In this document: positions 37,350 to 63,180 of the stretch, in pieces
Layout: each line of letters starts with the position of its first letter
Position numbering within the stretch: the first letter of the stretch is position 1
Source of the DNA: Arenibacter sp. ARW7G5Y1
Lineage (GTDB): Bacteria; Bacteroidota; Bacteroidia; Flavobacteriales; Flavobacteriaceae
DNA length: 64,000 nucleotides
Direction: 5' to 3'
Assembly (NCBI RefSeq): GCF_003201775.1
Contig: NZ_QJJZ01000001.1
Span: forward strand, 753,233-817,232
Program-made: the position numbers and the translations under genes
Notes under the pieces: model-generated
What the model saw: only the letters and a program-made list of their open reading frames with translations
Database searches by the model: none
What the model was told of the DNA's origin: nothing

Positions 37350-37640
37350 ATGGGAATTCCCTATGGAAGTAAAGCGGAAAAAGAAGCGAATATTTACTCT
37401 TACGATGTGGTGATAGCATCGGCAGACCATATTTATGGTCCATATAACGATCGTTATACAGCAGTTACGGGTGGGCGACATAACAATTTTTTTAAGGACA
37501 AAGAAGGACAATGGTGGAGTCCCATGTTCGGCAATCCCCGGGGAGACCTTTTGGATCGACCTTTTATAGCAAGACCCGCTATTGTTCCCATTATTTATAA
37601 TAAGGGGAAATTCATGGTTGATACGAACAGGAAATTATAA
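37350..37640 (+). pseudogene. C-terminal fragment of a GH43-like glycoside hydrolase
   Basis: Ninety-six codons read like the last blade of a five-bladed-propeller glycosidase: VVIASADHIYGPYNDRY, GGRHNNFFKDKEGQWW, MFGNP and ARPAIVPIIY. These match the end of GH43/GH117-like enzymes, which usually have at least 300 further residues before this point. There is no signal peptide and no catalytic aspartates, so it is a truncated remnant; the ATG at 37350 is probably fortuitous. It suggests the ancestral locus held a GH43-like enzyme downstream of the sulfatase. Confidence 0.7.
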
Positions 37641-41340: not shown

Positions 41341-42657
41341 TTAAATAACCTCTGTTTTACCTGGAATGGGGATGGTGTAATTTCCATCTTTTCCTGGCAT
41401 ATCCGGCATTTTGGCATCCCATGTATATGCTTCAGGTAGAATACTTCTTTTGGAAGCCAAGACTTGATCTATATTAAACCTTTGACCTGAGTGAATGGAC
41501 ATTCGGCCCATGATGGTGGTCAAGGTTGATTTTGCACCGTATTCAACCTGGTTTATGGGTTTGTTGTTTATGATTGAGTTAACAAAATTGGACTGACATT
41601 TTTGGGAAGACCCTAATGTTTCTTCCTTGTTGCGATATCTCCAAATTAATTCACCAGCCGCATTGAATATTTGGGATTTATCATCGGCATAGCCCTTTGT
41701 TCCCCGAATATGAAATCCACTCTTGTTCCAGTTATTGTCTATATTTCTACATTGAACGTGTAATTTTACTTTATTTGGGTATTCGTATTCTGCGTAATGA
41801 TGGTCAAAGGTATTTCCTTGATTGGGTCCGGAATACGCCTGCCTCCCACCTAATCCATTTACCGTAATTGGATAATCGTCCATAATCCAATTCATAAGGT
41901 CTATTTGATGAATTGCCTGCCCTGCCAGTTGCCCGCCCCAAAGCCAAGTAAAATACCTCCAATTCCTCATCTGATAATTCATTTCGGACTGTTCCGGTTG
42001 TCTTGGGAAAATCACGGGAGCACCTACATTATAATAAACGTCCAAGGAAGTAATGTCACCAATCTCACCATTATCTATTCTGTCCTTCATTTCTTGATAA
42101 CCACTTTCGTAACGCAATTGTAGTCCAACACCGATGCTCAAATTTTTTTGCTTTGCAATCTTGTTGGTTTCCATTATTTTTAAATACCCTGGGATGTCAA
42201 CAAATAAGGGTTTTTCCACAAAAGCATGTTTTCCGGCTTCAACAGCAGCTTCTAAATGTATTGGGCGGAACGGGGGAGGTGTTGCCAGGATAATAACATC
42301 ACAATGTTCCAAAACTTTTTTATAGGCGTCAAATCCAACAAATCTCCGGGTGTCGGGTATATCTACCTGATCAGGAAAGCTATTTTTTAAATTTTGATGG
42401 GCACTCATAAGCCTGTCTTCAAAAACTTCGCCAAGTGCCACTAATTTTACATTGGAAGAAGTGCCCAGTGCCTCATAGGCAGCCCCTGTACCTCTTCCAC
42501 CACAACCTACCAGTCCAACTTTTAGTACGCTTTTATCATTATTGGCACTATTTCCAAAGGCATTCATGGGTACTCCGCCAATTAGAGTTCCGCTTGCAAG
42601 GATGACCCCTGTTTTTACAAAATCTCTTCTGCTTCGGGCTGTTCTCTTTTTGTTCAT
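41341..42657 (-). CDS. Tat-exported Gfo/Idh/MocA family oxidoreductase
   Basis: A 438-residue protein. It begins with a twin-arginine-type signal (RSRRDFVKTG then a hydrophobic stretch), so it is exported folded with its cofactor. The Rossmann motif is GLVGCGGRGTG (48-58) and the conserved EKP lysine motif is at 148-150; the C-terminal domain has YFTWLWGGQLAGQAIHQIDL. The family oxidises or reduces sugars and inositols with NAD(P) and is common in Bacteroidota and Planctomycetes glycan loci. Periplasmic members usually hold the cofactor tightly. The exact substrate is not evident. Confidence 0.9.
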   Translation of the reverse strand: MNKKRTARSRRDFVKTGVILASGTLIGGVPMNAFGNSANNDKSVLKVGLVGCGGRGTGAAYEALGTSSNVKLVALGEVFEDRLMSAHQNLKNSFPDQVDIPDTRRFVGFDAYKKVLEHCDVIILATPPPFRPIHLEAAVEAGKHAFVEKPLFVDIPGYLKIMETNKIAKQKNLSIGVGLQLRYESGYQEMKDRIDNGEIGDITSLDVYYNVGAPVIFPRQPEQSEMNYQMRNWRYFTWLWGGQLAGQAIHQIDLMNWIMDDYPITVNGLGGRQAYSGPNQGNTFDHHYAEYEYPNKVKLHVQCRNIDNNWNKSGFHIRGTKGYADDKSQIFNAAGELIWRYRNKEETLGSSQKCQSNFVNSIINNKPINQVEYGAKSTLTTIMGRMSIHSGQRFNIDQVLASKRSILPEAYTWDAKMPDMPGKDGNYTIPIPGKTEVI

Positions 42658-42834: not shown

Positions 42835-44076
42835 TTATTTAAAAAAAAGGAAATAGATACTGTAAATGGACATTAGTATCAAAATTGAAATACCAATAAT
42901 GCCCAGGGCAGTGGTGAACATATTATTTTTGAGTCCTTCCGAAATTCTTTTTCCGTTTGAAAAAATCAGAATTATAACCGCAATCATAGGTACTATCATG
43001 ATGGTTATGCCTTGTGCGAAAATGATGAGTTCCAAAGGAAGCGATCCAAATATGTGAGCTATGGTGGCACCTATCAGGATTACCAATATAATCATGGCAC
43101 GAACTTTCAATTTTCGAAGGTTACTAATACCGAACAGAGTGTCTGCCAAGATTACGCCCCCTATGGTTGCATTGCCGATCATTGATGAAAAGGACGCCGC
43201 AAAAAAACCGATCATGAACGCATATGATGTAAATGGGCCGAAAAGAGGTTCCAAGGCCATGCCTAGGTCGGAAGCACTAAGCACGTCTATATTATTGCTT
43301 TTTAGAACCGATGCGGCACAAATCATGACCAAGGTAGAAAGCATACCAAGGATAATGATTCCCGTTCTACTTTCCCTTAAACTATCTTTCTTATCTGCAA
43401 TGCCAACACCTTTTTCCTGGGTAAGATAAGATTGATAAAAGGCTCCAACTATTGAAAAGCTGGAAGCGGTGAGGGTTATGATAAAATATTCGGACCCATC
43501 AGGGACAGATGGGATGATTCCCATAAGTATTTCTTGAATATTTGGGGCCACCATGATTATGGTCAGTAAAAAGGACGTCAACATCAGAATCACCAATCCT
43601 ATCATCAATTTCTCCAGAATTTTGTAAAAAGATTTAAAGAATAAGAGAAATATGGCCAGAGAGGTAAATATTAATATCCAAATCCACATGGGGGTGGAAA
43701 ACAACTCGGAAAAAGCCAGGCTGGCTCCAACGGTATTCCCAGCTTGAAAGGAGGCTGTGGTCAAGAAGATGCCTAGGCCAACTAGCAAGGCCGTCCGCTG
43801 GCCGATTTCAGTCTTAATACGCGATATAAAAGAATCCTTACTGTACAGTCCAATTTTGGTGGACATGTTGGTAAAAGCTGTCATTAAGATCATGGATAGC
43901 AATAGAACCCAAATTAAAGAATAGCCATAATTGGCACCTAGCTTGGTGTTAATGGTAAGGCTTCCAGGTCCAAATACCAAAGCCGCTGTAATAATGCCAG
44001 GGCCGAGTTTCTTTAGAAAGGATTTGGGTGCCTGCCCAATTGGGCTTTTTGGGGCAGTCTTTTTTATTAAACTCAT
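42835..44076 (-). CDS. Nramp-related membrane transporter lacking the metal-binding motifs
   Basis: A 413-residue inner-membrane protein with about 11 helices, aligning from GPGIITAALVF through GYSLIWVLLLS with helix 1 of Nramp transporters. The metal-binding DPGN of helix 1 reads GPGS, and the helix 6 MPHN-type site reads FYQS, so the residues that coordinate Mn or Fe are absent. A different substrate is likely. The gene is divergent from the agaS operon, with 284 bp between, which may hint at a link to amino-sugar use. Length matches the family. Confidence 0.82.
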   Translation of the reverse strand: MSLIKKTAPKSPIGQAPKSFLKKLGPGIITAALVFGPGSLTINTKLGANYGYSLIWVLLLSMILMTAFTNMSTKIGLYSKDSFISRIKTEIGQRTALLVGLGIFLTTASFQAGNTVGASLAFSELFSTPMWIWILIFTSLAIFLLFFKSFYKILEKLMIGLVILMLTSFLLTIIMVAPNIQEILMGIIPSVPDGSEYFIITLTASSFSIVGAFYQSYLTQEKGVGIADKKDSLRESRTGIIILGMLSTLVMICAASVLKSNNIDVLSASDLGMALEPLFGPFTSYAFMIGFFAASFSSMIGNATIGGVILADTLFGISNLRKLKVRAMIILVILIGATIAHIFGSLPLELIIFAQGITIMIVPMIAVIILIFSNGKRISEGLKNNMFTTALGIIGISILILMSIYSIYFLFFK

Positions 44077-44319
44077 TGCGTATTATTTTTTATGATGACC
44101 AAAGGGCAAATTACAAATTTTTAGAAGCCTTGGGGTGTATAATTTCAATTGGATTACAAGTTTCTGTTTTCATGTAAACCAATTCCGTTCATTTAAATTC
44201 TATATAAAGGTTCGTAAACGGCTAATTTTTGTTTAACAAATATATCCAATAAATTTTTAAATAATAAGGAATAATAAATAAAAACGTAAAAAATACTTTC
44301 GTTTACTTAAAAGTTTAGT

Positions 44320-44360: not shown

Positions 44361-45521
44361 ATGATTGAAAATAAAAACGGGACAAGTCCAAGTTATACGG
44401 CCACCGAAATAATGGGTCAACCTTATTTGTGGAAAAGGACCTATGAAGATGTTGTTGCTGCGAAACAGGAATTGTCCGCTTTCCTAAATAAAGTGCTGGT
44501 ATATGATAATCTGAGGGTTATTTTGACAGGAGCCGGTACTTCGGCTTTTATTGGAGACGTGCTCCATAAAAAGTTTCAGAAAAATTTTGGGAGGTCTACC
44601 GAGGTAATCGCATCAACTGATTTTATTTCGCATCCCGCGGATTATATAATGGATTCCGAACAACCGGTATTGATGGTGTCATTCGCCCGTTCCGGCGATA
44701 GTCCGGAAAGCGTTGCGACCGTAGATCTGGCAAATGAATATTGTACCACAATTTTTCACTTGATAATCACTTGTAATGCTACCGGTAAGCTTGCCAATTT
44801 GGCCGATCTTGATAATTCTTTTGTGTTGTTGATGCCGGCAGGGGCCAATGATAAAGGCTTGGCAATGACTGCATCCTTTACCACTATGCTTTTGGCGGGA
44901 ATCTTGGTGTCTGATATTAAGGGTTTGGAACGGAATAGGAAACACGTGGAACAATTGGAGAGGTATGGAAAAACTATTCTAAACAAATATGCCCAAAAGA
45001 TCAAGGCCGTGGCAGCTCTGGAATTTAACAGGGTGGTTTTCTTAGGGTCAGGTGCTTTAAAAGGGATTGCTAGGGAGTCCCATTTAAAAGTACAGGAATT
45101 ATCGGATGGGCAAGTAGTGTGCAAATACGATTCCTTTCTGGGATTAAGGCATGGGCCTAAAGCGGTAATCAATGAATCTACTTTGGTAGTGTATCTTTTC
45201 TCCAATGATGATTTTGTAAACAATTATGAGTACGACCTGGTCAGATCTATAAATCGACAAAAAGAAAAGTTGTACGAGATTGGAATCGGTGAGGTGATAA
45301 AAAATAAAGAATCAATTTCTTTGGACTTGTCCATTGAAGTGGCCGAATCCAATAACATTCCCGAAGAATTTTTTGCTGTGTGCGCTGTGCTTCCCAGTCA
45401 GCTCTTAGGGTTGTTCAAATCCCTGGATTTGGGTCTTTCGCCTGATTCCCCTTCGGTAAATAATTCCATTAATCGAGTAGTGCAAGGGGTTGAAATTTAT
45501 AAGATCAAAAAAAAGGTATAA
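44361..45521 (+). CDS. agaS: AgaS-type SIS-domain ketose/aldose isomerase (amino-sugar deaminase)
   Basis: A 386-residue cytosolic protein with two SIS domains; AgaS of E. coli is about 384 residues. A frame with a TTG start 12 codons earlier exists, but the ATG at 44361 fits the family length. Motifs include LTGAGTSAFIGDVLH, VSFARSGDSPESVA (sugar-phosphate loop), FLGSGALKGIARES and RHGPKAVI. Known members convert galactosamine-6-phosphate to tagatose-6-phosphate and ammonia. A PfkB kinase and a class II aldolase follow, exactly the next two steps of that route. It heads a forward operon. Confidence 0.85.
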   Translation: MIENKNGTSPSYTATEIMGQPYLWKRTYEDVVAAKQELSAFLNKVLVYDNLRVILTGAGTSAFIGDVLHKKFQKNFGRSTEVIASTDFISHPADYIMDSEQPVLMVSFARSGDSPESVATVDLANEYCTTIFHLIITCNATGKLANLADLDNSFVLLMPAGANDKGLAMTASFTTMLLAGILVSDIKGLERNRKHVEQLERYGKTILNKYAQKIKAVAALEFNRVVFLGSGALKGIARESHLKVQELSDGQVVCKYDSFLGLRHGPKAVINESTLVVYLFSNDDFVNNYEYDLVRSINRQKEKLYEIGIGEVIKNKESISLDLSIEVAESNNIPEEFFAVCAVLPSQLLGLFKSLDLGLSPDSPSVNNSINRVVQGVEIYKIKKKV

Positions 45522-45629
45522 AATTAACATTCTAGATAGATTTTCCTGTAGTCGTTATGCAATCACAGAAATAGTGATAATTTAGGAATGATATAGGAAA
45601 ATATTCAATAATGTTCGAAAATATAGTTT

Positions 45630-46586
45630 ATGACTAGGGAATTTGATGTCATAGTTGTGGGGGAGCTCAATGTGGATTTGATTTTCAATCAGGTCAATGG
45701 CTTTCCTGTAGTTGGAAAGGAAATTTTGTCGGATCACATGACTTTGACCTTGGGCAGTTCTTCTGCCATATGTGCAAGTAATTTAAGTTCCTTGGGCTTA
45801 AAAGTAGCGTTTATCGGTAAGATCGGCAATGATGTTTTTGGGCAATTTATAATTGAAAAACTAAATAGATCCGGTGTTGATACTTCAATGTTGATGATTG
45901 ATGGGGACCTTAAGACGGGTGCCACGGTAGCACTCAGTTATGGCGAGGATAGGGCTATGATAACACATCAAGGCGCAATGTCGCATTTGGGATTAAATGA
46001 TATTGATGAAGATCAGTTGTTACGGGCCAAACACCTTCATTTTTCTTCTTATTTTTTTCAGCCAGGTTTTAAAAATAATGTCCATAGGTTATTTGAAATG
46101 GCCAAAAATGTGGGAACTACCACTTCCTTGGATGTGCAATGGGATCCGGCTGAAACATGGGAGCTTAATTTGGGCCAGGTGCTTCCTTATGTGGATGTTT
46201 TTATTCCCAATGAGGTAGAGCTTAAAAAATTGACTGGGCTTTCGAGTGTTGATCGGGCCATTGAAAGTATTAAAAATATTAGCAACTATGTAGTGGTCAA
46301 ATGTGGAAGTAGTGGGTCCGTTATGTACTACGATAATAAAGAGGTGAGGCAAAATCCTTTTTTGAATAAGGATGTGGTTGATACTATTGGCGCGGGCGAT
46401 AGTTTCAATGCGGGTTTTATTTCAAAGTTTATAAAGGGGGCTTCCCCCGAAGAGTGTCAAGAATTTGGAAACTTAATCGGTGCCATTTCCACTACCAAAG
46501 CAGGTGGGACCGGGGCTTTTAAAAATCTAGACGGGATAATGGAAATTGCAAGGAATAGGTTTAATTATCAGGAATCAAAAGAATGA
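45630..46586 (+). CDS. PfkB-family sugar kinase
   Basis: A 318-residue ribokinase-fold enzyme. The N-terminal VVGELNVDLIF and GSSSAICASNLSSLGL motifs are family typical, and the C-terminal signature DTIGAGDSFNAGF holds the catalytic base D257. Next to agaS and the aldolase it most likely phosphorylates tagatose-6-phosphate, though fructokinase or 2-keto-3-deoxygluconate kinase activity cannot be excluded. Its end overlaps the aldolase start by 4 bp (ATGA), implying translational coupling. Confidence 0.88.
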   Translation: MTREFDVIVVGELNVDLIFNQVNGFPVVGKEILSDHMTLTLGSSSAICASNLSSLGLKVAFIGKIGNDVFGQFIIEKLNRSGVDTSMLMIDGDLKTGATVALSYGEDRAMITHQGAMSHLGLNDIDEDQLLRAKHLHFSSYFFQPGFKNNVHRLFEMAKNVGTTTSLDVQWDPAETWELNLGQVLPYVDVFIPNEVELKKLTGLSSVDRAIESIKNISNYVVVKCGSSGSVMYYDNKEVRQNPFLNKDVVDTIGAGDSFNAGFISKFIKGASPEECQEFGNLIGAISTTKAGGTGAFKNLDGIMEIARNRFNYQESKE

Positions 46587-47407
46587 AATTACAGGACAAG
46601 TTTATAGAGTTAAGGAGTAAACGACAGGGGATTCTGGCCACTAATTTTTATAATTATGAAACACTAAAAGGTGTTTTATTGGCGGCAAAAGCCAAGGAAC
46701 AACCAATTATTTTACAATTGACCAGAAGTTCTATAGATTATATGGGACTTCCTGTAGCATTTCAAATGGCCAAATCCATGTTGGATTATCACGGAGTTGA
46801 AGGTTGGGTGCATTTGGATCATGGGGACTCCTATGACTTGGTGGCCCAATGTTTGGATGCGGGATTTGATTCGGTAATGATCGATGCCAGTGAAAAGTCT
46901 TTTAGTGAAAATATTGCGGTTACGAGTAAAGTAGTGAAATTGGCCGAAAGGTATGGTGCCAATGTAGAGGCGGAACTCGGTTATATTGCCAAATTGGGTC
47001 AGGATAAGGAAAAAGGAGGTTTTACCCAGCCTTTGGAGGCCAAGGAATTTGTGGATGCCACAGGTGTAAATGCCCTGGCCATTGCTATTGGTACTGCCCA
47101 TGGTTTTTATGATAAGGAGCCGGAGTTACAACTTGCAAGGCTTTCTGAAATCGCAGCAATAACCAATGCAACATTGGTGTTGCACGGCGGCTCCGGTGTT
47201 CCAGGGGATAGTCTTAGGGAGGCGGTGGACAGAGGGATTTGTAAAATAAACCTTGCTACTGAAATCAAAAATATTTTTATGCAGACCTTGAAGGCAAAGC
47301 TATTGACCAATGAGGAAATTGATTTACGAAAAGTTTTTCCGGTAGCAACCGATCAAATTGTTGGATTGGTAAAGGATAAATTGGATATTGTAAAAAATTT
47401 GAAATAA
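46583..47407 (+). CDS. Class II tagatose/fructose-bisphosphate aldolase
   Basis: A 274-residue zinc-dependent aldolase. D79 and H80 in HLDHGDS, H173 in GTAHGFY and H201 in LHGGSG match the catalytic aspartate and the three zinc histidines; VEAELGYIAK is the usual loop. The size is close to KbaY/GatY (about 285). It would split tagatose-1,6-bisphosphate (or fructose-1,6-bisphosphate) into dihydroxyacetone phosphate and glyceraldehyde-3-phosphate, finishing the AgaS-PfkB route. It is translationally coupled to the kinase. Confidence 0.9.
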   Translation: MKLQDKFIELRSKRQGILATNFYNYETLKGVLLAAKAKEQPIILQLTRSSIDYMGLPVAFQMAKSMLDYHGVEGWVHLDHGDSYDLVAQCLDAGFDSVMIDASEKSFSENIAVTSKVVKLAERYGANVEAELGYIAKLGQDKEKGGFTQPLEAKEFVDATGVNALAIAIGTAHGFYDKEPELQLARLSEIAAITNATLVLHGGSGVPGDSLREAVDRGICKINLATEIKNIFMQTLKAKLLTNEEIDLRKVFPVATDQIVGLVKDKLDIVKNLK

Positions 47408-47479
47408 CGTGCTTGGAATTCAGTCCTATATTTTGGACGGGCCAAGCTCATCTAGTTTTGTAGCATAACAGATAGGTAA

Positions 47480-48595
47480 ATGAATGTTATCTCTTTAACA
47501 CGGGACCTAATAAAATTCAATACAATAAACCCTCCGGGCAATGAGGAAGAGGTTGCCAGATATGTGGGTGCCATTCTAGCCGATCATGGGTTTGATGTGG
47601 ATTATCCCAAATATTCCGAAGGGCGGTTAAATGTGGTGGCCACCAAAGGTCTTTCTGGGCAAGTGGCCCCCATTGTACTTACGGGACATTTGGATGTTGT
47701 TCCGCTTGGGGCTAAGGAATGGAAAACAGACCCGTTTGAGGGTAAGGTGTTTGATGGTAAATTGTTCGGGCGCGGTTCCTCCGATATGAAGGGGGGCATA
47801 GCGGCCATGATGATGGCAGCAATACAGTGTTTTAATAATGACCCGCCCAAGGGAGGGGTGAAACTAATTTTTACGGCAGATGAAGAGTTGGGGTGCAATG
47901 GAGCAAGGCATCTACGTGGGAGTGGTTATGATATTGGAAGTGCAAGCGCTATGCTGGTTGGTGAGCCTACTTCCAATGCACCTCTGATTGGGCACAAAGG
48001 AGGTTTGTACATAAATGCAAAAACTACCGGGGTTACCGCGCATTCTTCCATGCCAGAATTGGGGGATAATGCAATTTATAAAGCTGCGAGGGCGATAAAT
48101 AGCATTGAAAAATTGAAATTTGATGTTTCGGAAGATAATTTGTTGGGGTTTCCCACCATTAATGTAGGTACAGTTAAAGGCGGATTGAACTTAAATTCGG
48201 TACCTGATAAAGCCGAATTTACTATTGATGTTAGATCAACCCCGAAATTGGATAATGCGATGGCCTTTGCAATCCTGGACAAAACTTTGGGACCAGAGGT
48301 GGACCTGGTAAAAATGGTCGATTTAGACGCTATTGCTACTGCCGAGAATCATTCTTTTGTAAAATTGGTGGCCCAGGTTTGCAATGTAGATTTTAACGCG
48401 GCAGAAATACAAAAGGCAGCTAGTTATTTAACCGATGCCTCCGTACTTACTCCTTGGCTAAATAATGTACCCACGATCATCTTGGGTCCGGGGGAGGCAC
48501 ATATGGCCCATCAAACAGATGAATTCTGCTATGTACATAAACTGGAGGAAGCTGTAGAAATATATAAGAAAATTATTCAGGAAAACGGTAAATAG
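47480..48595 (+). CDS. M20-family metallohydrolase (ArgE/DapE-like deacylase)
   Basis: A 371-residue cytosolic two-zinc hydrolase. Metal and catalytic motifs are visible: LTGHLDVVP, FGRGSSDMKGG (bridging aspartate), TADEELGCNGA (catalytic and metal glutamates), VGEPTS and AHQTDEF. The dimerisation domain with HKGGLYINAKTTGVTAHSS lies in between. Family members remove acyl groups from N-acetylornithine, N-succinyl-diaminopimelate and other N-acyl amines. In this operon it may deacylate an amino-sugar-derived compound. It starts 72 bp after the aldolase and 8 bp before the SDR gene. Confidence 0.88.
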   Translation: MNVISLTRDLIKFNTINPPGNEEEVARYVGAILADHGFDVDYPKYSEGRLNVVATKGLSGQVAPIVLTGHLDVVPLGAKEWKTDPFEGKVFDGKLFGRGSSDMKGGIAAMMMAAIQCFNNDPPKGGVKLIFTADEELGCNGARHLRGSGYDIGSASAMLVGEPTSNAPLIGHKGGLYINAKTTGVTAHSSMPELGDNAIYKAARAINSIEKLKFDVSEDNLLGFPTINVGTVKGGLNLNSVPDKAEFTIDVRSTPKLDNAMAFAILDKTLGPEVDLVKMVDLDAIATAENHSFVKLVAQVCNVDFNAAEIQKAASYLTDASVLTPWLNNVPTIILGPGEAHMAHQTDEFCYVHKLEEAVEIYKKIIQENGK

Positions 48596-48603
48596 AAATT
48601 GTA

Positions 48604-49638
48604 ATGGAGCATCAAAAGTATTTTAAGGACGAAAATGAACTGGAAGAGGCATTGTCCAGGCCTACTTCGGAGTTGGTGGAAATGTTCAAAACCCTGGATG
48701 GGGATATTATATTATTGGGTGTTGCCGGTAAAATGGGAGTTTCCATGGCGCGTATGGCCAAAAGGGCCTGTAAAATGGCCGGTATTGACAAACGGATTAT
48801 TGGGGTTTCCAGATTTAGCGATAAGGGGCAACAGTCCTATCTTGAAGAAAGTGGCATTGAGACCATTAAGGGAGATCTTTTGGATCTGGAATTTATAAAT
48901 AGTCTGCCGGAAGTGGAGAATGTTATTTATTTGGCAGGAATGAAATTTGGCACTGCGGGCAACGAATCCTTTACTTGGGCTATGAATTCCTTCTTACCTG
49001 GATTGGTGGCCCAAAAGTTCAAAAAATCAAGAATTGTGGCGTTTTCAACCGGATGTGTTTACCCCTTGGTTGATATCACTTCAGGCGGATCCAAGGAATC
49101 CGATACTCCAGAACCGGTAGGGGAGTACGCACAATCCTGTTTGGGAAGGGAACGCTTGTTCGAATATGGAAGTTTAAAGTTCGGAACTCCAGTAGTGCTT
49201 ATACGATTGAATTATGCTGTGGAAATGCGGTATGGGGTATTAGTGGATATTGCTTCCAAGGTATACAATCAGGAAACATTGGATGTAACCATGGGCTATG
49301 CCAATGTTATCTGGCAAGGAGATGCCAATGAGATGATTCTAAGAAGTTTGCAGTATTGTACTTCCCCTGCGGCGCATTTGAATATTAGTGGGGCCGAATT
49401 GATCTCCGTGACCGAAGTGGCCAAGAAGTTTGGGAAAATAATGGGCAAGGAAGTGAAGTTAAAAGGTGTTGAGGCAAATTCGGCCCTATCGGTCGATGTC
49501 TCCAAGAGTATAGGACTGTTGGGAACTTCTTCGGTAGGTTTGGATCAGCTAATTGAATGGACTGCCCATTGGATCGGTTCTGACAAACGTTTGTTGGGCA
49601 AGTCAACCCATTTTGAGGTAAGGGACGGTAAGTATTAA
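48604..49638 (+). CDS. NAD-dependent epimerase/dehydratase-like SDR protein lacking catalytic lysine
   Basis: A 344-residue Rossmann protein. The nucleotide-binding stretch LLGVAGKMGVSMARMA is at about 37-52, NVIYLAG follows beta-4 and AFSTGCVYP holds the S/T of the active site (148-149). The YxxxK motif reads YAQSC (175-179), so the lysine is replaced by cysteine, which is unusual for a catalytic epimerase. It is packed 8 bp behind the M20 gene and 19 bp before the DapA-like gene, so it is surely part of the same operon. Possible roles are oxidation of a sugar carbon or a non-canonical dehydratase. Confidence 0.78.
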   Translation: MEHQKYFKDENELEEALSRPTSELVEMFKTLDGDIILLGVAGKMGVSMARMAKRACKMAGIDKRIIGVSRFSDKGQQSYLEESGIETIKGDLLDLEFINSLPEVENVIYLAGMKFGTAGNESFTWAMNSFLPGLVAQKFKKSRIVAFSTGCVYPLVDITSGGSKESDTPEPVGEYAQSCLGRERLFEYGSLKFGTPVVLIRLNYAVEMRYGVLVDIASKVYNQETLDVTMGYANVIWQGDANEMILRSLQYCTSPAAHLNISGAELISVTEVAKKFGKIMGKEVKLKGVEANSALSVDVSKSIGLLGTSSVGLDQLIEWTAHWIGSDKRLLGKSTHFEVRDGKY

Positions 49639-49657
49639 TAATTAAAGATTTGGAACA

Positions 49658-50713
49658 TTGAGTAGTTTATTGACAGACGAATTGAAAGAATTATTGCAAG
49701 GAGGGCTGGCGATACCCGCCAATCCTACCGCTTTAACCCGCGATTTAAAATTGGATGAACGAAGACAGCGAGCCTTGTCCAGGTATTATTTGGATGCCGG
49801 GTCAGGGGGGTTGGCCATTGGGGTGCATACCAGTCAATTTGAAATTAGGGAAGTTGGGCTGTACCAGCCTGTATTGGAATTGGGGAAGGAAGAAATGGAT
49901 TCCTTTTTTAATAAAAGTGGGAAGCCGGTTTTTAGGATAGCAGGGGTATTGGGCAATACTGCACAAGCTGTACAAGAAGCCAAGATAGCATCGGATTTAG
50001 GGTATCATGCAGTATTGTTGGGCTTGGCGGCCTTAAAAGGTAAATCGAACAGGGAGTTGGTAGAACATTGTAGGGCCGTTGCAGAAATTATACCTGTAAT
50101 TGGATTTTACTTGCAGACGTCGGTTGGGGGAGCTGTGTTGGATACGGAATTTTGGCGCGAATTTTCTAAGATTGAAAATGTTGTGGCTATAAAAATGGCA
50201 CCATTTAATAGGTATAATACACTAGATGTGGTACGGGGTGTTGTGGAATCCGGAAGAGGTAAAGATATAGCCCTGTATACTGGAAATGATGACAACATTG
50301 TGGCGGATTTATTAACGGAATACCAAATCCCGACAGCAGCAGGGGTAATTAAGAAAAGAATAGTAGGTGGCTTGTTGGGACATTGGGCAGTTTGGAACAA
50401 AAAAGCAGTAGAACTTTTTGAAAGGATAAAAAATGCACCTCCTTCTGAAGCATTGGAACTTTTGTCGGTGGGTATTGGCATAACAGATGCCAATGCGGCC
50501 TTCTTCGATTCCAGGAATGGTTTCAAAGGGTCCATAGCGGGTATTCATGAGGTGTTGATAAGGCAGGGTTTACTTGAGGGCAACTACACCATTGATCCAA
50601 AAGAAAGGCTCAGTCCGGGTCAGAAAGAGGAAATAGATAGGGTATATGCCATGTATCCCGAATTGAACGATGATGGGTTTGTTAGTGAGAACTTGGATAA
50701 ATGGTTGCGTTGA
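49658..50713 (+). CDS. DapA/NanA-family aldolase or dehydratase, TTG start
   Basis: A 351-residue TIM-barrel protein of the dihydrodipicolinate-synthase superfamily. The Schiff-base lysine is K179 in VVAIKMAPFN and the conserved tyrosine is Y151 in IGFYLQTS. It is longer than DapA (about 292), with extra residues at both ends. No ATG or GTG precedes the conserved sequence before an in-frame stop, so TTG at 49658 is the start. Family reactions include pyruvate aldol chemistry, sugar-acid dehydration and deamination of 1-pyrroline-4-hydroxy-2-carboxylate. The operon context suggests it acts on a keto-acid product of the M20 or SDR enzymes. Confidence 0.82.
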   Translation: MSSLLTDELKELLQGGLAIPANPTALTRDLKLDERRQRALSRYYLDAGSGGLAIGVHTSQFEIREVGLYQPVLELGKEEMDSFFNKSGKPVFRIAGVLGNTAQAVQEAKIASDLGYHAVLLGLAALKGKSNRELVEHCRAVAEIIPVIGFYLQTSVGGAVLDTEFWREFSKIENVVAIKMAPFNRYNTLDVVRGVVESGRGKDIALYTGNDDNIVADLLTEYQIPTAAGVIKKRIVGGLLGHWAVWNKKAVELFERIKNAPPSEALELLSVGIGITDANAAFFDSRNGFKGSIAGIHEVLIRQGLLEGNYTIDPKERLSPGQKEEIDRVYAMYPELNDDGFVSENLDKWLR

Positions 50714-50806
50714 TAAGGAGCTTTTTATAAGAACTGTTCCCTTGGTTTAAAAAAGGATGAAACTAGTGGAATAGTTTCAAAATAAATATTATTATTTGAA
50801 TACGAT

Positions 50807-51718
50807 ATGAAAGAAAGTAAGAAGAAGCCCTGGTTGTTATATGCAATAGTTGCTACTGTGTTTTGGGGAGTATGGGGTGCATTTACCAGTGTTCCTTCGC
50901 GTAATGGGTTTCCGGATACATTGATCTATTGTGTTTGGGCCCTTACAATGATCGTCCCTGCTGTTTTTGTGCTTTGGCGGATCAATTGGAAGTTGGAAAT
51001 GGATAAAAAAGCCATTTTATACGGTTTAATCATCGGTCTCTTGGGGGCTGGAGGTCAAATGATACTATTTTATGCGGTAACGATTGGACCAACGTATTTA
51101 ATCTTTCCTATAATTTCCCTTTCCCCATTAATAACTATTGTACTTTCTCTTTTATTTTTAAAGGAGCGGACCGGTTTGTTGGGGGTTATAGGCATTCTTC
51201 TGGCCTTGTTCTCCTTGCCGTTATTTGAATATAGCGGGGACCTTCCAACTGAAGAGTTGGGTGAAAATGGAACCCTATGGTTCGTACTTGCCATTTTGGT
51301 TTTGGTGGCTTGGGGTGTACAGGCTTATTTCATGAAGTTGGCAAATGGCTCTATGAGCGCGGAAAGTATATTTTTCTATATGATGATTACGGGAATTATG
51401 CTTATTCCAATGGCCTTTTATATGACGGATTTTTCCCAGGAAATTAATTGGGGTTGGGATGGTCCCTACTTAGCTGCGGCCATTCAAATTTTAAATGCTA
51501 TCGGTGCCCTTTGCCTTGTATTTGCATTTAGGTATGGCAAGGCTATAGTGGTTTCTCCCATGACCAATGCCGGAGCTCCTCTGATGACCTCGATTATATC
51601 CTTGCTGGTGTTGGGTATAATGCCCGGACAATTTAAGGTAGTGGGAATTATTTTTGCTGTTATTGCGGCATTTCTTTTGGCAATACAGCCAGAAGGCAAG
51701 AAACCGGTCAAAGATTAG
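50807..51718 (+). CDS. DMT/EamA-type inner-membrane transporter
   Basis: A 303-residue protein with ten membrane helices arranged as two EamA repeats (LLYAIVATVFWGVWGAF at the start of the first; LAILVLVAWGVQAYF at the start of the second). Relatives move sugars, amino acids or metabolites across the inner membrane. As the last gene of the catabolic run it probably brings in the monomer handled by the upstream enzymes. No binding protein is present. Confidence 0.82.
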   Translation: MKESKKKPWLLYAIVATVFWGVWGAFTSVPSRNGFPDTLIYCVWALTMIVPAVFVLWRINWKLEMDKKAILYGLIIGLLGAGGQMILFYAVTIGPTYLIFPIISLSPLITIVLSLLFLKERTGLLGVIGILLALFSLPLFEYSGDLPTEELGENGTLWFVLAILVLVAWGVQAYFMKLANGSMSAESIFFYMMITGIMLIPMAFYMTDFSQEINWGWDGPYLAAAIQILNAIGALCLVFAFRYGKAIVVSPMTNAGAPLMTSIISLLVLGIMPGQFKVVGIIFAVIAAFLLAIQPEGKKPVKD

Positions 51719-55773: not shown

Positions 55774-57294
55774 ATGAAAACAGTAATAAAAATACCAATT
55801 ACGCTATCAGTACTTATAGCACTATTATGTATACCTCTTTCTTGTACAGATGGTTTTGAGGAGCTAAATACAAATCCAAAACTAATTACTGATGATGATA
55901 TAAAACCTTCCCTATTGTTTACAAGGGTATTGAAGGAGTCTGGTTTTGATATTTTAAACGTAGGCCGAATAGGGGAATTCTCCAGCTATATAAAAAGAGG
56001 GGATTCGGGTAACATGCTTGCCCTTACCGATTTTTCGGAACCGTTTAATTATTATACTGCCTATATAGAAAACTTGGCGGCAATTATTAGGCTTACGGCC
56101 GATGACCCTGAGTTGCGCAATCAAAATGCCATGGCTAGAATATGGAAAGTCTGGGTATACCATCGTATGACAGATGCCTATGGTGATATTCCTTATACTG
56201 AGGTTGCCACTTCTTTTGATGATATAGTACTGTATCCGAAATATGATACGCAGGAATCAATATATGTGGACATGTTAAAAGAGTTGAAGGAAGCCGCGTC
56301 AGCATTGAGTACTTCGTCGGAGCAAAAAGGTTTTGGTGCTGCAGATGTGCTTTTTGCCGGTGATGCGGATTCATGGAAACGATTTGCAAATTCTTTGAGA
56401 TTGAGATTGGCTTTAAGGGTTCGTTATGCCGACGAGACTATGGCACAACAAAATGTGGGAGATGTATTTTCATCTAGTTTAATCGCCAACAATGACCAAA
56501 ATGCGGTTATTACCAGTGAGGGCCCTGATGCAGCGGATTTATCCAATACCAACCCACTATATCAAGAAGTAGTGAATGGTAACCCTGGTGCTGGATCTTC
56601 AATTTCTGCCGGCCTGGCATTGGTTGAGAATCTGTTGAACAATGATGATCCCCGATTGACGATATATTTGGAACCTAATAATGATTTGGAATATATAGGC
56701 GGGGCTATAAATCTAACTGCTGAAGAAAAGGCACTCTATCCGCAGTCGTCCAAATGGAGCCAATACTTTCGTAATGCCACATATGATTTTAATGTAATAC
56801 AGGCGTCTGAAGTTAACTTTTTAAAAGCGGAGGCTGTTTTAGCAGGTATGGCAACAGGTGATGCCAACGAGTTTTATCAAAATGGAATTACGCTGGCAAT
56901 GCAACAATATGGTGTTGACCCAGCTGATATTACCGCTTTCCTTTCCTCTCCTGCAGGTGTTCTTTCCGGAACTGATGAGGAGAAACTTGAAATGATCATA
57001 ACGCAAAAGTACTTGGCACTTATTGGGGATTCATATGAGGTTTTTGCTGAACATCGTAGAACTGGTTATCCCAGGGTTTGGATAGGTAGTGAACCTGCTG
57101 CTGAAACAAATAACGCTTTGCCTAGAAGGTTGCCTTATCCACTAATAGAGTATAATTTGAACGCCCAGGGCGTTGAAGGTGCCGCCGGAAGATTGACTGG
57201 TGGTGATAAAATGAAATCAAGAATTTGGTGGGATGCCAAAGCTGGTGTGCCTTTTGCACACCCAAAACAGGGGACTTTTCCTCCATATGAATAA
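55774..57294 (+). CDS. SusD-like lipoprotein (SusD/RagB second type)
   Basis: A 506-residue surface lipoprotein with lipobox PLSC (C24). The N-terminal FEELNTNPKLITDDDIKPSLLF and C-terminal IITQKYLALIGDSYEVFAEHRRTGYP motifs mark the SusD-like group common in Flavobacteriia, distinct from the classic SusD at 28116. It would bind the ligand at the mouth of the upstream SusC. Two hairpins follow in the 261-bp gap before the deacetylase gene. Confidence 0.93.
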   Translation: MKTVIKIPITLSVLIALLCIPLSCTDGFEELNTNPKLITDDDIKPSLLFTRVLKESGFDILNVGRIGEFSSYIKRGDSGNMLALTDFSEPFNYYTAYIENLAAIIRLTADDPELRNQNAMARIWKVWVYHRMTDAYGDIPYTEVATSFDDIVLYPKYDTQESIYVDMLKELKEAASALSTSSEQKGFGAADVLFAGDADSWKRFANSLRLRLALRVRYADETMAQQNVGDVFSSSLIANNDQNAVITSEGPDAADLSNTNPLYQEVVNGNPGAGSSISAGLALVENLLNNDDPRLTIYLEPNNDLEYIGGAINLTAEEKALYPQSSKWSQYFRNATYDFNVIQASEVNFLKAEAVLAGMATGDANEFYQNGITLAMQQYGVDPADITAFLSSPAGVLSGTDEEKLEMIITQKYLALIGDSYEVFAEHRRTGYPRVWIGSEPAAETNNALPRRLPYPLIEYNLNAQGVEGAAGRLTGGDKMKSRIWWDAKAGVPFAHPKQGTFPPYE

Positions 57295-57555: not shown

Positions 57556-58479
57556 ATGAAAAACAAACAAAACGTATTATTTTATTTAAAATCCAAAAGT
57601 ACTCCTGTGGTCTTTTGGGGAGGTTTTGGCAAGTCGTTGCAAGCAATTTTCACCTTATTTATGCTAGCAGGAACCCTATTATCCTGCGAAGAGAAGAAAA
57701 AAAATTCAACAGAACAATCTAACGTTGTCCCAGTGGATGTTTCCGCAAAGGGAAAAACTATTATGGCCGTTTTTGCACATCCGGACGATGAAATTTACAT
57801 TGGCCCACTCATGGCAAAATATGCACGTGAAGGAGCTAAGGTGCAATTGGTCACCGTAACCGATGGACGTTATGGTACCGGGCAGACCGATTTGAAGCCT
57901 GGGGACGAATTAACGGCTTTGCGCCAAGAGGAAGTAAATTGCGCAGCTGATCACATGGGAATTGAAAAGCCCATTTGGATGGGATATCACGATCAATTGA
58001 AATTAAAGGACGGTTTTTTTGGACATGTTCCATACATACAGGAAATAATGGTAAAATTGGATAGTCTCGTAATGGATATTGACCCGGATGTAATTATTAC
58101 ATGGGGTCCGGATGGAGGTTCCAATCATATGGACCACAGGTTGGTCGGCGCATCCATGACCCAGGTGTATTTGAGCAAGTCCAGGGTAAAACCCCTAAGT
58201 CTGTATTATGTGGCGACTCCTTCGTCCCATATAAAGGATGAAGATCAGCGACTCTTGGCAGGTATTGCGGACGATTACCTTACTACTCAAATTGCTTATT
58301 CCGAAGAGGATAGGGAGAATACAATTCTTGCTTTTCAATGCTATAAGACACAGTTTTCCGAGGAGGCCATGAAACGGAGAGCCGATCGATTGAGATCAGG
58401 TGATCAAAAAATTTATTTGCGGCCGGTGCTAAAGTCCAAAACAAAAAAAGATAACCTTTTTGTTGTAGATGGCGAGTAG
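57556..58479 (+). CDS. Secreted PIG-L/LmbE-family deacetylase lipoprotein
   Basis: A 307-residue zinc hydrolase. An unusually long N-terminal region leads to a lipobox LLSC with C44, so the enzyme is probably anchored outside the cytoplasm. The zinc motif AHPDDE is at 74-79 and the second ligand site is SNHMDHRLVG. Family members remove N-acetyl groups from GlcNAc- or similar amino-sugar-containing molecules. Near a GH20 hexosaminidase and AgaS it could turn N-acetylhexosamine into free hexosamine before import, covering a step for which no cytosolic AgaA/NagA is present. Confidence 0.85.
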   Translation: MKNKQNVLFYLKSKSTPVVFWGGFGKSLQAIFTLFMLAGTLLSCEEKKKNSTEQSNVVPVDVSAKGKTIMAVFAHPDDEIYIGPLMAKYAREGAKVQLVTVTDGRYGTGQTDLKPGDELTALRQEEVNCAADHMGIEKPIWMGYHDQLKLKDGFFGHVPYIQEIMVKLDSLVMDIDPDVIITWGPDGGSNHMDHRLVGASMTQVYLSKSRVKPLSLYYVATPSSHIKDEDQRLLAGIADDYLTTQIAYSEEDRENTILAFQCYKTQFSEEAMKRRADRLRSGDQKIYLRPVLKSKTKKDNLFVVDGE

Positions 58480-58520
58480 GAACGTTTCATTGAACAGTGA
58501 ATATATTGGAAGGGATTTTG

Positions 58521-59768
58521 ATGAATAATACGGAATCTGACGTAGTTATTATTGGCGGAGGAATAATTGGTTTGTTCTGTGCCTATTACTTAATGGAAGA
58601 GGGAAAAACCGTTACCGTGTTGGATCAAGGACAGATAAAGGATTCTTGTTCCTATGGCAATTGTGGTCTGGTAAGCCCAAGTCACGCCCTGCCATTGAAC
58701 AGTCCTCAACTACTATTAAAGGCATTGGTATGGCTTTTTCAAAAGAATTCCCCTTTTTATATCAAGCCACAAATGGATATGGAATTTATGGGTTGGATGA
58801 TGGGGTTTGCATTTAATTCCTTTAGTGGGAAGCAGCTGGAAAAAAGTATGAAAGGCCGTGGCAGCTTGTTGATGGATTCCAGGACATTGTACGATGATAT
58901 TTTTAAAGAACATAAGTGGGACTGTAATTGGGCACCCAGTGGAATACATTTTGTTTACAGCCAGGAAAAGAGTTTTAACGCCTATCAGAGTAAAGATTCA
59001 AAACTGGCAGAATTGGGTCTGGCGGCCGAACCCATTATAGGGCGAGAACTTTTTAACAAGGAACCTTCACTAACAGAGCATGCCTATGGCTCTTGGTTTT
59101 ATAAGATAGATGCTTCTCTCAACCCTGGAAAATTGCTAAATGAACTTCGTGGACACCTGCTATCAAGAGGAGTTCAAATAAGGGAATTATGTAAGGTAGA
59201 TACCTTTGAGGAATCCAATGGCAGGATTACCGAAATAACTACAAATCACGGCAATTTTAAGGCAAGGGATGTGGTAATGGCTACAGGAGCATGGACGGCC
59301 AATTTGGCAAAACAGTTAAAACTTAAAATCCCGGTTATCCCTGGAAAGGGCTATAGTATCACAATGAAATCGCCTACAGTTCATCCAACATGTCCCATTA
59401 TCTTTGATGAGAACAAGGTAGTTGTTACACCTTGGAAAGAAGGCTATAGATTGGGGGGAACCATGGAGTTTTCGGGTTACGATACCACATATAATGAGCA
59501 TAGGATCCAAACGCTTAAAAATGTTGCCAATCTATATTTGAAGGAGCCTTATACAAATGAAGGGGTTGAAGAATGGTACGGGTGGAGACCAATGACCAAC
59601 AATGGTTTGCCCATTATAGATAGATCTCCCGTGCATAACAACTTATTTGTGGCCTGCGGACATAATATGTTGGGGTTAAGTATGGCTCCCAGTACAGGAA
59701 AACTTATAACCGAAATGGTGATAGGTAAAGAGAAACACCTTGAAAGTGATCCGTATGCTTTTGCTTGA
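58521..59768 (+). CDS. D-amino-acid dehydrogenase-like FAD oxidoreductase (DAO family)
   Basis: A 415-residue flavoprotein from the ATG at 58521, which has GGAAGGG upstream; a GTG eight codons earlier is less likely. The FAD motif VVIIGGGIIGLFCAYYL is at residues 8-24, DVVMATGAW in the middle, and YGWRPMTNNGLPIIDRSP with CGHNMLGLSMAPSTGK at the end. It resembles DadA and cis-4-hydroxy-D-proline dehydrogenases, oxidising an amine to an imine and passing electrons to the respiratory chain. With the DapA-like protein at 49658 it could form a deamination route. It follows the PIG-L gene by 41 bp. Confidence 0.85.
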   Translation: MNNTESDVVIIGGGIIGLFCAYYLMEEGKTVTVLDQGQIKDSCSYGNCGLVSPSHALPLNSPQLLLKALVWLFQKNSPFYIKPQMDMEFMGWMMGFAFNSFSGKQLEKSMKGRGSLLMDSRTLYDDIFKEHKWDCNWAPSGIHFVYSQEKSFNAYQSKDSKLAELGLAAEPIIGRELFNKEPSLTEHAYGSWFYKIDASLNPGKLLNELRGHLLSRGVQIRELCKVDTFEESNGRITEITTNHGNFKARDVVMATGAWTANLAKQLKLKIPVIPGKGYSITMKSPTVHPTCPIIFDENKVVVTPWKEGYRLGGTMEFSGYDTTYNEHRIQTLKNVANLYLKEPYTNEGVEEWYGWRPMTNNGLPIIDRSPVHNNLFVACGHNMLGLSMAPSTGKLITEMVIGKEKHLESDPYAFA

Positions 59769-62062: not shown

Positions 62063-62100
62063 GAGTAATATTTACCATGTATATAATAAATACAAAACCC

Positions 62101-63180
62101 ATGAAAATTGTTTTATGTTGCTTAGTGTTATTTACGCTTTTATCCTGTTCGGAAAAACAGGCCTACTACACCTTGGAAGACTTTGGGAAGGTAGAAAAGA
62201 TAGACACCCATATTCACGTATCCACTGATAGGGACGTATTTGTGGAACAGGCTAAGAGGGACAATTTTAAGCTTTTGAATATTGTAGTGGACTTTACCAA
62301 GGGAAGGGAATTCGTTGAAGAGGAGTTCGCCTACAGGTTGGATCAAAAGAGCAGGCATCCTGAAAGTTTTGAAATGGCAACGGCATTTTCCATTAAAGAA
62401 TGGGACGATCCAAATTGGTTAAACCAAACTTTGGATTGGTTGAAAAGGAATATAGACGAAGGCGCCCTTGCGGTAAAAGTCTGGAAAAATGTAGGGATGG
62501 TCTTTAAGGATTCAACCGGGCAATTAGTAATGGTGGACAATCCCAAGCTCGATACTATATTCAAGTTTTTAACCGAGCGCAAAATACCCGTAATTGGGCA
62601 TTTGGGCGAACCAAAAAATTGTTGGCTGCCATTAGAGGAGATGTCCGTAAACAATGATCGGGTCTATTTTGAAGAGCATCCACAGTATCATATGCACAAG
62701 CATCCTGAACTGCCTACCTATGAGGATCAGATTGCGGCACGGGACAGAATGCTTGAAAAACATCCAGAGCTCATTTTTGTTGGAGCCCATATGGGCAGTT
62801 TGGAATGGAGCGTGGACGAATTGGCGAAAAGATTGGATAAATTCCCCAATATGTCCATAGATCTTGCTGCCCGTATAGGTCAGGTTTTTTACCAAACCAT
62901 TGAGGATAGGGAAAAAGTAAGGGAATTTTTTGTTAAATATCAGGACCGAATTCTATATGCCACGGACTTGTCCGACGGGGGAAAGGATGACCCGAAAAAG
63001 CTTATAAGGGAAATGCACGATGCCTGGATACTGGATTGGCAGTTTTTTGTAACCGATGATATTATGACCAGCGATAGGGTAAATAATGAATTTCGCGGGT
63101 TGAAACTGCCTAGGGAAGTGGTAGATAAGATATATAATGGCAATGCCAGAAAGTGGTTAAAAATGTTCCCCGGTGAATAG
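62101..63180 (+). CDS. Amidohydrolase_2-family lipoprotein
   Basis: A 359-residue lipoprotein from the ATG at 62101 (MKIVLCCLVLFTLLSC, lipidated C16); an ATG eight codons earlier is possible. The metal-dependent TIM-barrel motifs are KIDTHIHVS (metal histidines), VIGHLGEP, FVGAHMGSLEW and YATDLSDG (catalytic aspartate). Relatives are decarboxylases or hydrolases of small ring compounds and lactones. The gene starts 38 bp after GH20 and ends 1 bp before the next gene, so all three are likely co-transcribed. Its extracytoplasmic site is notable; the substrate is unknown. Confidence 0.8.
   Translation: MKIVLCCLVLFTLLSCSEKQAYYTLEDFGKVEKIDTHIHVSTDRDVFVEQAKRDNFKLLNIVVDFTKGREFVEEEFAYRLDQKSRHPESFEMATAFSIKEWDDPNWLNQTLDWLKRNIDEGALAVKVWKNVGMVFKDSTGQLVMVDNPKLDTIFKFLTERKIPVIGHLGEPKNCWLPLEEMSVNNDRVYFEEHPQYHMHKHPELPTYEDQIAARDRMLEKHPELIFVGAHMGSLEWSVDELAKRLDKFPNMSIDLAARIGQVFYQTIEDREKVREFFVKYQDRILYATDLSDGGKDDPKKLIREMHDAWILDWQFFVTDDIMTSDRVNNEFRGLKLPREVVDKIYNGNARKWLKMFPGE

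Follow-up and report, generated by a model that had tools for sequence, protein, structure and literature searches.

An aga-type galactosamine operon joined to a widespread M20-SDR-DapA module in Arenibacter sp. ARW7G5Y1

Why would genes for the breakdown of galactosamine share a tightly packed operon with a deacylase, an atypical short-chain dehydrogenase/reductase (SDR) and a DapA-like protein? The question is raised by a locus of Arenibacter sp. ARW7G5Y1 found in a 64,000-nucleotide stretch of contig NZ_QJJZ01000001.1 (positions 753,233 to 817,232), the whole of which is called the window here; labels beginning with L denote other loci and those beginning with G denote genomes, G000 being the genome of the window. 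An initial annotation had described seven tightly packed genes and had treated them as one operon. The seven open reading frames were confirmed, with gaps between them, in order, of 108, -4, 72, 8, 19, and 93 bases:

44361..45521, + strand: AgaS-type galactosamine-6-phosphate deaminase/isomerase (SIS domain; TIGR02815 is the best family)
45630..46586, + strand: PfkB sugar kinase, ribokinase-like, a candidate amino-sugar 6-kinase (Pfam PfkB)
46583..47407, + strand: class II ketose-bisphosphate aldolase (Pfam F_bP_aldolase, 268 bits; cbbA subfamily over cut-off)
47480..48595, + strand: M20 ArgE/DapE-family deacylase (TIGR01910 over cut-off)
48604..49638, + strand: extended-SDR-like protein with YxxxC (Pfam Epimerase)
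49658..50713, + strand: DapA-like Schiff-base enzyme of a distinct 351-residue family (Pfam DHDPS)
50807..51718, + strand: DMT (EamA) transporter (Pfam EamA, two domains)

All seven family assignments exceeded the Pfam curated cut-offs, that of the SDR barely (22.5 versus 20.9 bits). The analysis below indicates that the locus is very probably made up of two fused modules, an aga module (AgaS-PfkB-aldolase-DMT) and an M20-SDR-DapA module, and that the seven genes together represent a fusion specific to this lineage and not a conserved pathway.

Two modules and their fusion

When named genomes were scanned with the DapA-like protein, at least 415 relatives came up; the best 80 of these were analyzed and, with those of four Flavobacteriaceae-family genomes, gave 84 loci (L034-L117). 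Locus counts were made by tblastn; gene calls in the GC-rich loci were imperfect (14 loci had presumed antisense calls over DapA), and some contigs ended early, which affects the M20 counts. The SDR was found near DapA in 75 of the 84 loci, and M20 in 23, with at least 50% identity in 20. AgaS was linked to SDR-DapA in only one of them, L039, which comes from an Allomuricauda metagenome-assembled genome (MAG; 66-77% identity) and lies outside the genus of the window; L039 was also the sole locus of the 84 with AgaS, aldolase and DMT. The idea of seven genes forming one conserved flavobacterial unit was therefore not borne out, while the amino-sugar theme of the initial annotation was. M20-SDR-DapA-DMT had been set against AgaS as the unexplained half of the operon, and M20, SDR and DapA do usually stand apart from AgaS, the pattern that the initial annotation had named as one that would refute its reading; the DMT gene instead tracks AgaS. 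DMT homologues lay no more than about 5 kb from AgaS in L161 (70% identity) and L166 (48%) and, among the 84 SDR-DapA loci, were found in L039 only. The DMT transporter was assigned to the aga module because its relatives sit near AgaS in L161 and L166.

The same separation was seen starting from AgaS. True AgaS proteins (E below 1e-90) were present in 7 of 149 Flavobacteriaceae genomes, including that of the window, which was the only one of the seven with AgaS linked to SDR-DapA; G011 contained both AgaS and SDR-DapA, on separate contigs.

The locus exceeds the seven genes, running from position 41341 to an AgaR repressor gene past the end of the window. Its other features are:

41341..42657, - strand: Gfo/Idh/MocA oxidoreductase with a Tat-like leader by eye (Pfam GFO_IDH_MocA and its C3 domain)
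42835..44076, - strand: Nramp-like transporter with GPGS at the DPGN site (Pfam Nramp, 219 bits)
44297..44304, + strand: TTTCGTTT, a putative AgaR operator core, 64 bases 5' of the AgaS ATG and kept in L186 and L187
52626..55763, + strand: SusC-like outer-membrane transporter (by eye; same place in L186 and L187)
55774..57294, + strand: SusD-like lipoprotein (by eye; same place in L186 and L187)
57556..58479, + strand: PIG-L de-N-acetylase with a lipoprotein leader by eye, a candidate periplasmic deacetylase of N-acetylgalactosamine (GalNAc) (Pfam PIG-L; in L186 and L187)
58497..59768, + strand: DadA-like flavin adenine dinucleotide (FAD) D-amino-acid dehydrogenase (Pfam DAO, 232 bits)
59885..62062, + strand: GH20-like protein, beta-N-acetylhexosaminidase family (Pfam Glyco_hydro_20b and Glyco_hydro_20)
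62077..63180, + strand: amidohydrolase_2 (Pfam Amidohydro_2; 40% identity to a protein of the L162 aga operon)
L128:10029-10799, about 7 kb past the window end: AgaR repressor gene (DeoR-type; NF040755, 281.5 versus 260 bits)
L128:11002-12687 (G000:C1:825001-826686), just past AgaR: GSDH sugar-dehydrogenase domain with cytochrome c

A Melibiase-domain protein is also encoded past the window end, together with the AgaR and GSDH-cytochrome c genes and others. Gfo/Idh homologues (50-69% identity) were found near SDR-DapA-Nramp in L035, L036, L037, and L111, and relatives of the Nramp-like carrier in 18 of the 84 loci. The Gfo/Idh and Nramp-like genes were assigned to the second module because their relatives stand near SDR-DapA in these other loci.

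Within the genus, relatives of DapA were found in 8 of 18 genomes, and AgaS was linked to SDR-DapA in three genomes, that of the window included. In G165 the block from Gfo/Idh to GH20 kept its gene order, with identities of 87-96% (90% for the DadA-like gene). In G161 (locus L187) the block was conserved at 73-94% identity, minus M20 and the DadA-like gene, and the rest of that genome contained no orthologue of either (closest matches 28% and 34% identical). AgaS was not seen in the retrieved stretches of the five other DapA-bearing genomes of the genus. Six of the eight loci from the genus contained a Gfo/Idh homologue. The arrangement appears to be more than chance, since its order was kept in G165 and, without M20, in G161.

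Scans for regulatory signals gave close to the expected numbers of matches and were not used: five versus 3.2 for a Bacteroidota-type promoter pattern, 63 versus 55.5 for sigma-70-like promoters, and, likewise left unused, 16 versus 18.5 for terminator-like sequences. Repeats within the operon were chance-like. Elsewhere in the window, a degraded sulfatase-like gene was observed at 36525-37640; by eye its start is readable near 36600, after which the frame breaks, and separate open reading frame pieces lie at 36792-37346 and 37350-37640.

The galactosamine module

The AgaS-PfkB-aldolase set had been interpreted as a route from galactosamine-6-phosphate to triose phosphates, and this interpretation held as an aga module, with AgaR over its cut-off and similar operons in other Flavobacteriaceae. 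The AgaS protein matched PF01380 (59.5 versus 25 bits), and TIGR02815 was its best NCBIfam match, at 380.1 bits against a curated cut-off of 529.2; because this cut-off was missed the protein is called AgaS-type and not a certified family member. Its nearest relatives by sequence in the PDB are AgaS-type isomerases (E 8e-84), and the nearest solved structures to PfkB by sequence are ribokinase-like sugar kinases.

Four of the six other Flavobacteriaceae genomes with true AgaS (L162-L165) contained operons of the form agaS, LacC-type kinase, ribokinase-like PfkB, aldolase, amidohydrolase_2, Gfo/Idh, and AgaR-like gene, with a SusC-like gene on the opposite strand. The Gfo/Idh protein of the L162 operon carries a GH109 C-terminal domain, and those of L163-L165 are 71-73% identical; GH109 is a family of alpha-N-acetylgalactosaminidases. 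In L039 and L162-L165 a ribokinase-like kinase stands beside a LacC/1-PFK-type kinase, and the window PfkB is the orthologue of the former (43-66% identity) and not of the latter. In L162 the LacC-type kinase scored just above the cut-off of the hexose kinase (1-PFK) subfamily and under that of lacC, and that of L039 fell just short of the 1-PFK cut-off; the best relative of the LacC-type kinase in the genome of the window was only about 24-28% identical. Because a LacC-type kinase adjoins its orthologue in the other operons, the PfkB of the window would, judging from this gene order, make a good candidate for the kinase of the first amino-sugar step, in which case the tagatose-6-phosphate kinase would be encoded elsewhere. 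The initial annotation had found neither a first-step kinase nor an AgaA/NagA deacetylase. PfkB itself is a plausible candidate for the former; the latter is indeed missing from the cluster, though not from the genome, whose sole over-cut-off NagA homologue lies on another contig and barely exceeds the threshold (226 versus 225.65 bits). AgaA can be replaced by NagA in Escherichia coli (PMC3668189).

The TTTCGTTT box, a putative AgaR operator core, occurred before agaS in the window, L186, L187, L161, L162, and L165, and was not found in the 250-300 bases scanned before agaS in L039, L163, L164, and L166; a literature search gave no confirmation of its identity.

Taken in order, the PIG-L or amidohydrolase_2 protein would strip the acetyl group outside the cell or at the membrane, DMT may import the amino sugar, and PfkB may phosphorylate it. 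AgaS would then deaminate and isomerize it to tagatose-6-phosphate, another kinase would add the second phosphate, and the aldolase would cleave the product. Module 1, to which amidohydrolase_2, PIG-L and AgaR are counted besides AgaS, PfkB, aldolase and DMT, is the known galactosamine route, here built with kinases of the PfkB family. It shares AgaS, a tagatose-bisphosphate aldolase, the AgaR repressor and the galactosamine-6-phosphate route with the aga/gam regulon of E. coli and differs in having PfkB-family kinases, no AgaA in the cluster, and the added second module (PMC3668189). No phosphotransferase system was noticed among the locus genes read, although no search aimed at one was made. 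Within the phylum, the Bacteroides thetaiotaomicron polysaccharide utilization locus BT4240-50 is likewise a SusC/D-type locus for GalNAc glycans and includes GH109, as do the flavobacterial aga operons (PMC11992087). It differs in using an APH-family GalNAc 1-kinase (BT4240), and in the text of that paper available to us AgaS is unmentioned and M20-SDR-DapA was not seen; to that extent the Arenibacter locus is a different solution to GalNAc use within the phylum from the B. thetaiotaomicron 1-kinase (PMC11992087).

The SDR-DapA pair and its partners

The M20-SDR-DapA set is a separate, widespread unit. MAGs supplied many of the 84 loci, which were labelled as Bacteroidota, Planctomycetota, Verrucomicrobiota, Acidobacteriota, Alphaproteobacteria, Paenibacillaceae, and further groups; plasmid records added Streptomyces, Rhodococcus, and more, and the SDR was also present in haloarchaea. 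The SDR and DapA sequences covaried (Pearson 0.72 over 84 shared rows, including the window), a value that common ancestry alone explains in part. In the literature searched, which covered few subscription papers, neither the SDR-DapA pair nor a catabolic route for galactosaminate was found described.

Short copies were removed before the proteins were aligned. The M20 protein scored 262 bits against TIGR01910 (cut-off 217.6), its metal-site residues H70, D102, E135/E136, E162, and H344 were invariant in 22 of 22 sequences, and the nearest solved structures by sequence were succinyl-diaminopimelate and acetylornithine deacylases. The SDR had been described as lacking its lysine, and this was found to be a trait of the family: in 85 aligned homologues Tyr175 was invariant, and position 179 was never Lys, being Cys in 74 and one of Cys, Val, Ala, or Thr in all 85. 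The YxxxK signature of classical and extended SDR dehydrogenases is thus absent. Lys43 and Lys114 were invariant in the same alignment. No NCBIfam model matched the SDR; its AlphaFold model had a predicted local distance difference test (pLDDT) score of 95, and the nearest PDB folds were TerB and sugar epimerases (extended SDRs, Z about 31).

The unusual length of the DapA-like protein, 351 residues, also proved to be general (median 355, n = 94). The Schiff-base Lys179 was present in 94 of 94 sequences and the catalytic Tyr151 in 92, and the AlphaFold model (pLDDT 94) had the DHDPS fold (Z 33.8). The protein shares this fold and the catalytic Lys and Tyr with the DHDPS/NAL superfamily (DapA, NanA, HOGA), and differs in an extra C-terminal part, a very distant sequence, and a pocket that reads GVHTTQ in the alignment where DapA proper has GTTGE. 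It scored far under the cut-off of the NCBIfam dapA model TIGR00674 (19.2 versus 206 bits), and its best NCBIfam match was KdgD, a very weak one. It therefore fits the DHDPS superfamily by Lys, Tyr and fold, yet is not a DapA (4-hydroxy-tetrahydrodipicolinate synthase) proper. By sequence, the nearest solved structures to the SDR and the DapA-like protein were distant epimerase-domain and DHDPS proteins, and fold searches with the two models placed them at the superfamily level alone, with no closer class.

The Nramp-like carrier scored as Nramp in Pfam and carried GPGS in 17 of 17 sequences spanning the site; the MPH-type motif was absent. In metal-transporting Nramp proteins DPGN serves in metal binding. 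The carrier is tied genetically to a catabolic module and may carry an organic substrate.

Hexosamine genes were found in 6 of the 27 loci grouped as Bacteroidota (NagA, NagB-like genes, and AgaS in L039), a proportion whose binomial test used an assumed background rate and is indicative at most. NagA was over its cut-off in L035 and L044; NagB-like genes were present in L035, L037, and L050, all under the nagB cut-off, with an edge fragment in L036. GH20 was over its cut-off in L041, L052, and L055, and GH109 in L041 and L043. GSDH with cytochrome c was found by Pfam in L046, L100, and marginally L043, with relatives in L042 and L069; galactonate dehydratase was over its cut-off in L069, and transporters of the major facilitator superfamily (MFS) in the galactonate-transporter family occurred, under cut-off, in L044 and L050.

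Neighbors were also counted near to and far from DapA in 93 loci, leaving out L124, which has no DapA. In 12 of the 93 loci a Ser/Thr ammonia-lyase lay no more than 4.5 kb from DapA, versus one further out, where slightly more sequence was searched. Eight loci, including five from Paenibacillaceae, had SdaA-type L-serine ammonia-lyases and four, from Planctomycetota, had IlvA-type enzymes; a D-serine lyase lay further from DapA in L119. Two-domain GNAT proteins (17 loci near, none far) and M20D hydrolases (10 near, one far) were similarly concentrated. Little or no preference was seen for TetR (9/3, near/far), one Gfo/Idh type (11/8), class III aminotransferase (2/4), FabG-type SDR (1/4) or, in a separate count, for SSS carriers (3/2), galactonate-family MFS (3/2), NagX (3/2), or GH109 (6/4).

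Relatives of the NagX-type membrane acyltransferase were observed in L039, L044, L055, L059, and L065; for that of L039, NagX was the sole NCBIfam match, under cut-off. A protein of about 450 residues was observed near SDR-DapA in Paenibacillaceae (L091, L093, L105, L107, L114 with a shorter frame, and L120). Pfam assigned the L091 copy solely a GdpP-like GGDEF domain, and it is possibly a regulator.

Three other pathways for the locus were considered. A lysine/diaminopimelate-like pathway (DapA, DapE and a DapB-like SDR) was rejected, as the dapA cut-off was far missed and the SDR is of the extended type by its structural model. A hydroxyproline route, with DadA and a DapA-like deaminase, was set aside on the grounds that DapA has the SDR as its conserved partner and that no DadA relative turned up by tblastn in L034-L117; so was an Amadori-product route of the FrlB/FrlD type, because the AgaS and aldolase partners fit aga better.

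Possible roles and known systems

The initial annotation had suggested a modified or N-acylated amino sugar, or amino-sugar acid, as substrate. The partners of the SDR-DapA pair (NagA, NagB, GH20, GH109, sugar dehydrogenases, and Ser/Thr ammonia-lyases) fit this suggestion, and the chemistry that would follow can be outlined. From gene content, the two modules, conserved residues and recurrent partners, all of which were observed, we infer every substrate and the order of the steps. The substrate would be a C1-oxidized form, an N-acetylhexosaminate, made by a sugar dehydrogenase outside the cell. M20 would take off the acetyl group, and an amino-acid-type enzyme, here the DadA-like protein, would take off the amino group to leave a 2-keto acid. 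Enzymes of the DapA fold act on 2-keto acids, and the DapA-like protein could split or dehydrate this one through its lysine Schiff base, as an aldolase or a dehydratase; the SDR would catalyze one further step. ArgE/DapE deacylases, amino-acid oxidases, and Ser/Thr lyases would suit an N-acetylated amino-sugar acid, which is chemically an N-acylated alpha-amino acid that bears a hydroxyl at the beta position. M20 and the DadA-like gene are jointly absent in G161 and jointly present in G165, a pattern compatible with consecutive steps, though it is a single event. In G161 a PLP gene of the D-cysteine-desulfhydrase family (L187:17731-18708) lies beside Gfo/Idh, where none was seen in the window, and is a possible stand-in deaminase. 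Tentatively, our preferred reading of module 2 is an oxidative hexosaminate branch.

In its working, this branch would resemble the ong cluster of Pseudoalteromonas prydzensis, to which it is not homologous. The ong cluster serves the catabolism of oxidized N-acetylglucosamine (GlcNAc1A) and includes OngC, a putative pyridoxal phosphate (PLP) D-amino acid deaminase, and KdgK (PMC9537276), together with OngB, an amidohydrolase barrel like D-aminoacylase (PMC12017989). The likeness would lie in GH20, deacetylation of an oxidized amino sugar, amino-acid-type deamination, a 2-keto acid, a sugar kinase and TonB-type import (PMC9537276), and also in the SSS carrier (by Pfam) and RidA-like gene (by eye) of some SDR-DapA loci; the RidA-like gene of L081 matched no NCBIfam model at E 1e-15. 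The differences are that the deacylase here is M20 and not a D-aminoacylase-like protein such as OngB (PMC12017989), that a DadA-like flavoprotein stands in place of the PLP enzyme OngC, no PLP D-amino-acid deaminase being found among the ten window genes scanned, and that neither an SDR-DapA pair nor an AgaS branch appears among the ong enzymes described in the available text (PMC9537276). Module 2 would accordingly seem not to be a member of the ong pathway, though it may be similar in working.

Several observations weigh against the hexosaminate branch. M20 of at least 50% identity was missing from 64 of the 84 loci, and because SDR and DapA persist without M20 and the DadA-like gene in G161, the core step does not need these two; their joint pattern amounts to a single event among three genomes, and of 149 family genomes only that of the window itself had an orthologue of DadA (E to 1e-90). 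NagA, NagB, and AgaS act on unoxidized amino sugars, so that their presence requires no aldonate. NagA and NagB were mostly found more than 5 kb from DapA (NagA one near and two far, NagB one and three), as was galactonate dehydratase (none and three). Searches by tblastn in the loci outside the Bacteroidota group yielded no close relative of NagA, NagB, or AgaS, the one NagA-like match, in L084, being 26% identical. L-Ser/L-Thr lyases and ArgE-type M20 enzymes prefer L-amino acids, whereas C2 of galactosaminate is D-like, and a simple sugar dehydrogenase role is doubtful for an SDR that has no catalytic lysine. The neighbor counts also overstate the signal, because the query families were picked after being seen near DapA and related loci were counted repeatedly; GH20 and Gfo/Idh are common in Bacteroidota, and the counts stand without a measured background.

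An unlikely but substantial alternative is that the modules serve two chemically unlinked building blocks of one polymer, galactosamine and an unusual sugar acid such as a uronate or deoxy-keto sugar. In its favor, module 2 is mostly found without AgaS, the best NCBIfam match of the DapA-like protein, a very weak one, is to KdgD, and the partners annotated on plasmids include sugar ATP-binding cassette (ABC) transporters, a tripartite tricarboxylate transporter, Gfo/Idh, sugar isomerases, and mandelate racemase; the Bacteroidota links to NagA, NagB, AgaS, GH20, and GH109, with Ser/Thr ammonia-lyases elsewhere, point instead to nitrogen chemistry. Still less probable is a conjugate of a sugar and a hydroxyamino acid, such as GalNAc-Ser/Thr, from which module 1 would take the sugar while module 2 and the lyases found elsewhere took the amino-acid half. 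The presence of Ser/Thr ammonia-lyases close to the SDR-DapA pair in some four lineages (Paenibacillaceae, a Chlamydiota-labelled MAG and a relative, Prescottella, and Phycisphaerae) agrees with this, as do GH109 both in aga operons and near SDR-DapA, the amino-acid-type ABC genes seen by eye beside SDR-GNAT-DapA in L085, and the action of the M20 and GNAT classes on amines and N-acyl amines. Freed Ser or Thr, however, would need neither SDR nor DapA, no other peptidase was recognized by eye in the locus, and B. thetaiotaomicron, in the available account, needs no module of this kind to strip mucin of its core GalNAc, using enzymes that include a GH109 (PMC11992087). A chance or transient recombination of an unrelated, perhaps detoxifying module 2 into the aga operon would suit the single fusion among 84 loci outside the genus and the absence of M20 and the DadA-like gene from one congener, but it is very improbable, given the tight coding gaps and a fusion retained over long divergence in G165, G161, and the Allomuricauda MAG (66-77%).

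The hexosaminate branch may also be part of something broader, which we regard as possible but doubtful as a whole. SDR-DapA would be the core of an undescribed catabolism of amino-sugar acids, or of related amino-hydroxy acids, across phyla, in which amino-acid-type deacylases and ammonia-lyases replace the ong enzymes; in Bacteroidota an Nramp-fold carrier free of metal ligands would import the organic substrate, and the fusion in this genus would let both the reduced and the oxidized sugar be eaten.

These results bring forward two tight families, the YxxxC SDR and the GVHTTQ DapA-like protein, which pair across many phyla and are given no assigned function in the literature searched. The Arenibacter locus ties the pair to amino-sugar breakdown and thereby makes its function testable with few substrates. 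It also suggests a route to galactosamine in marine Bacteroidota in which PfkB-family kinases work with AgaS, and for a carrier of the Nramp fold it points to a candidate substrate other than a metal.

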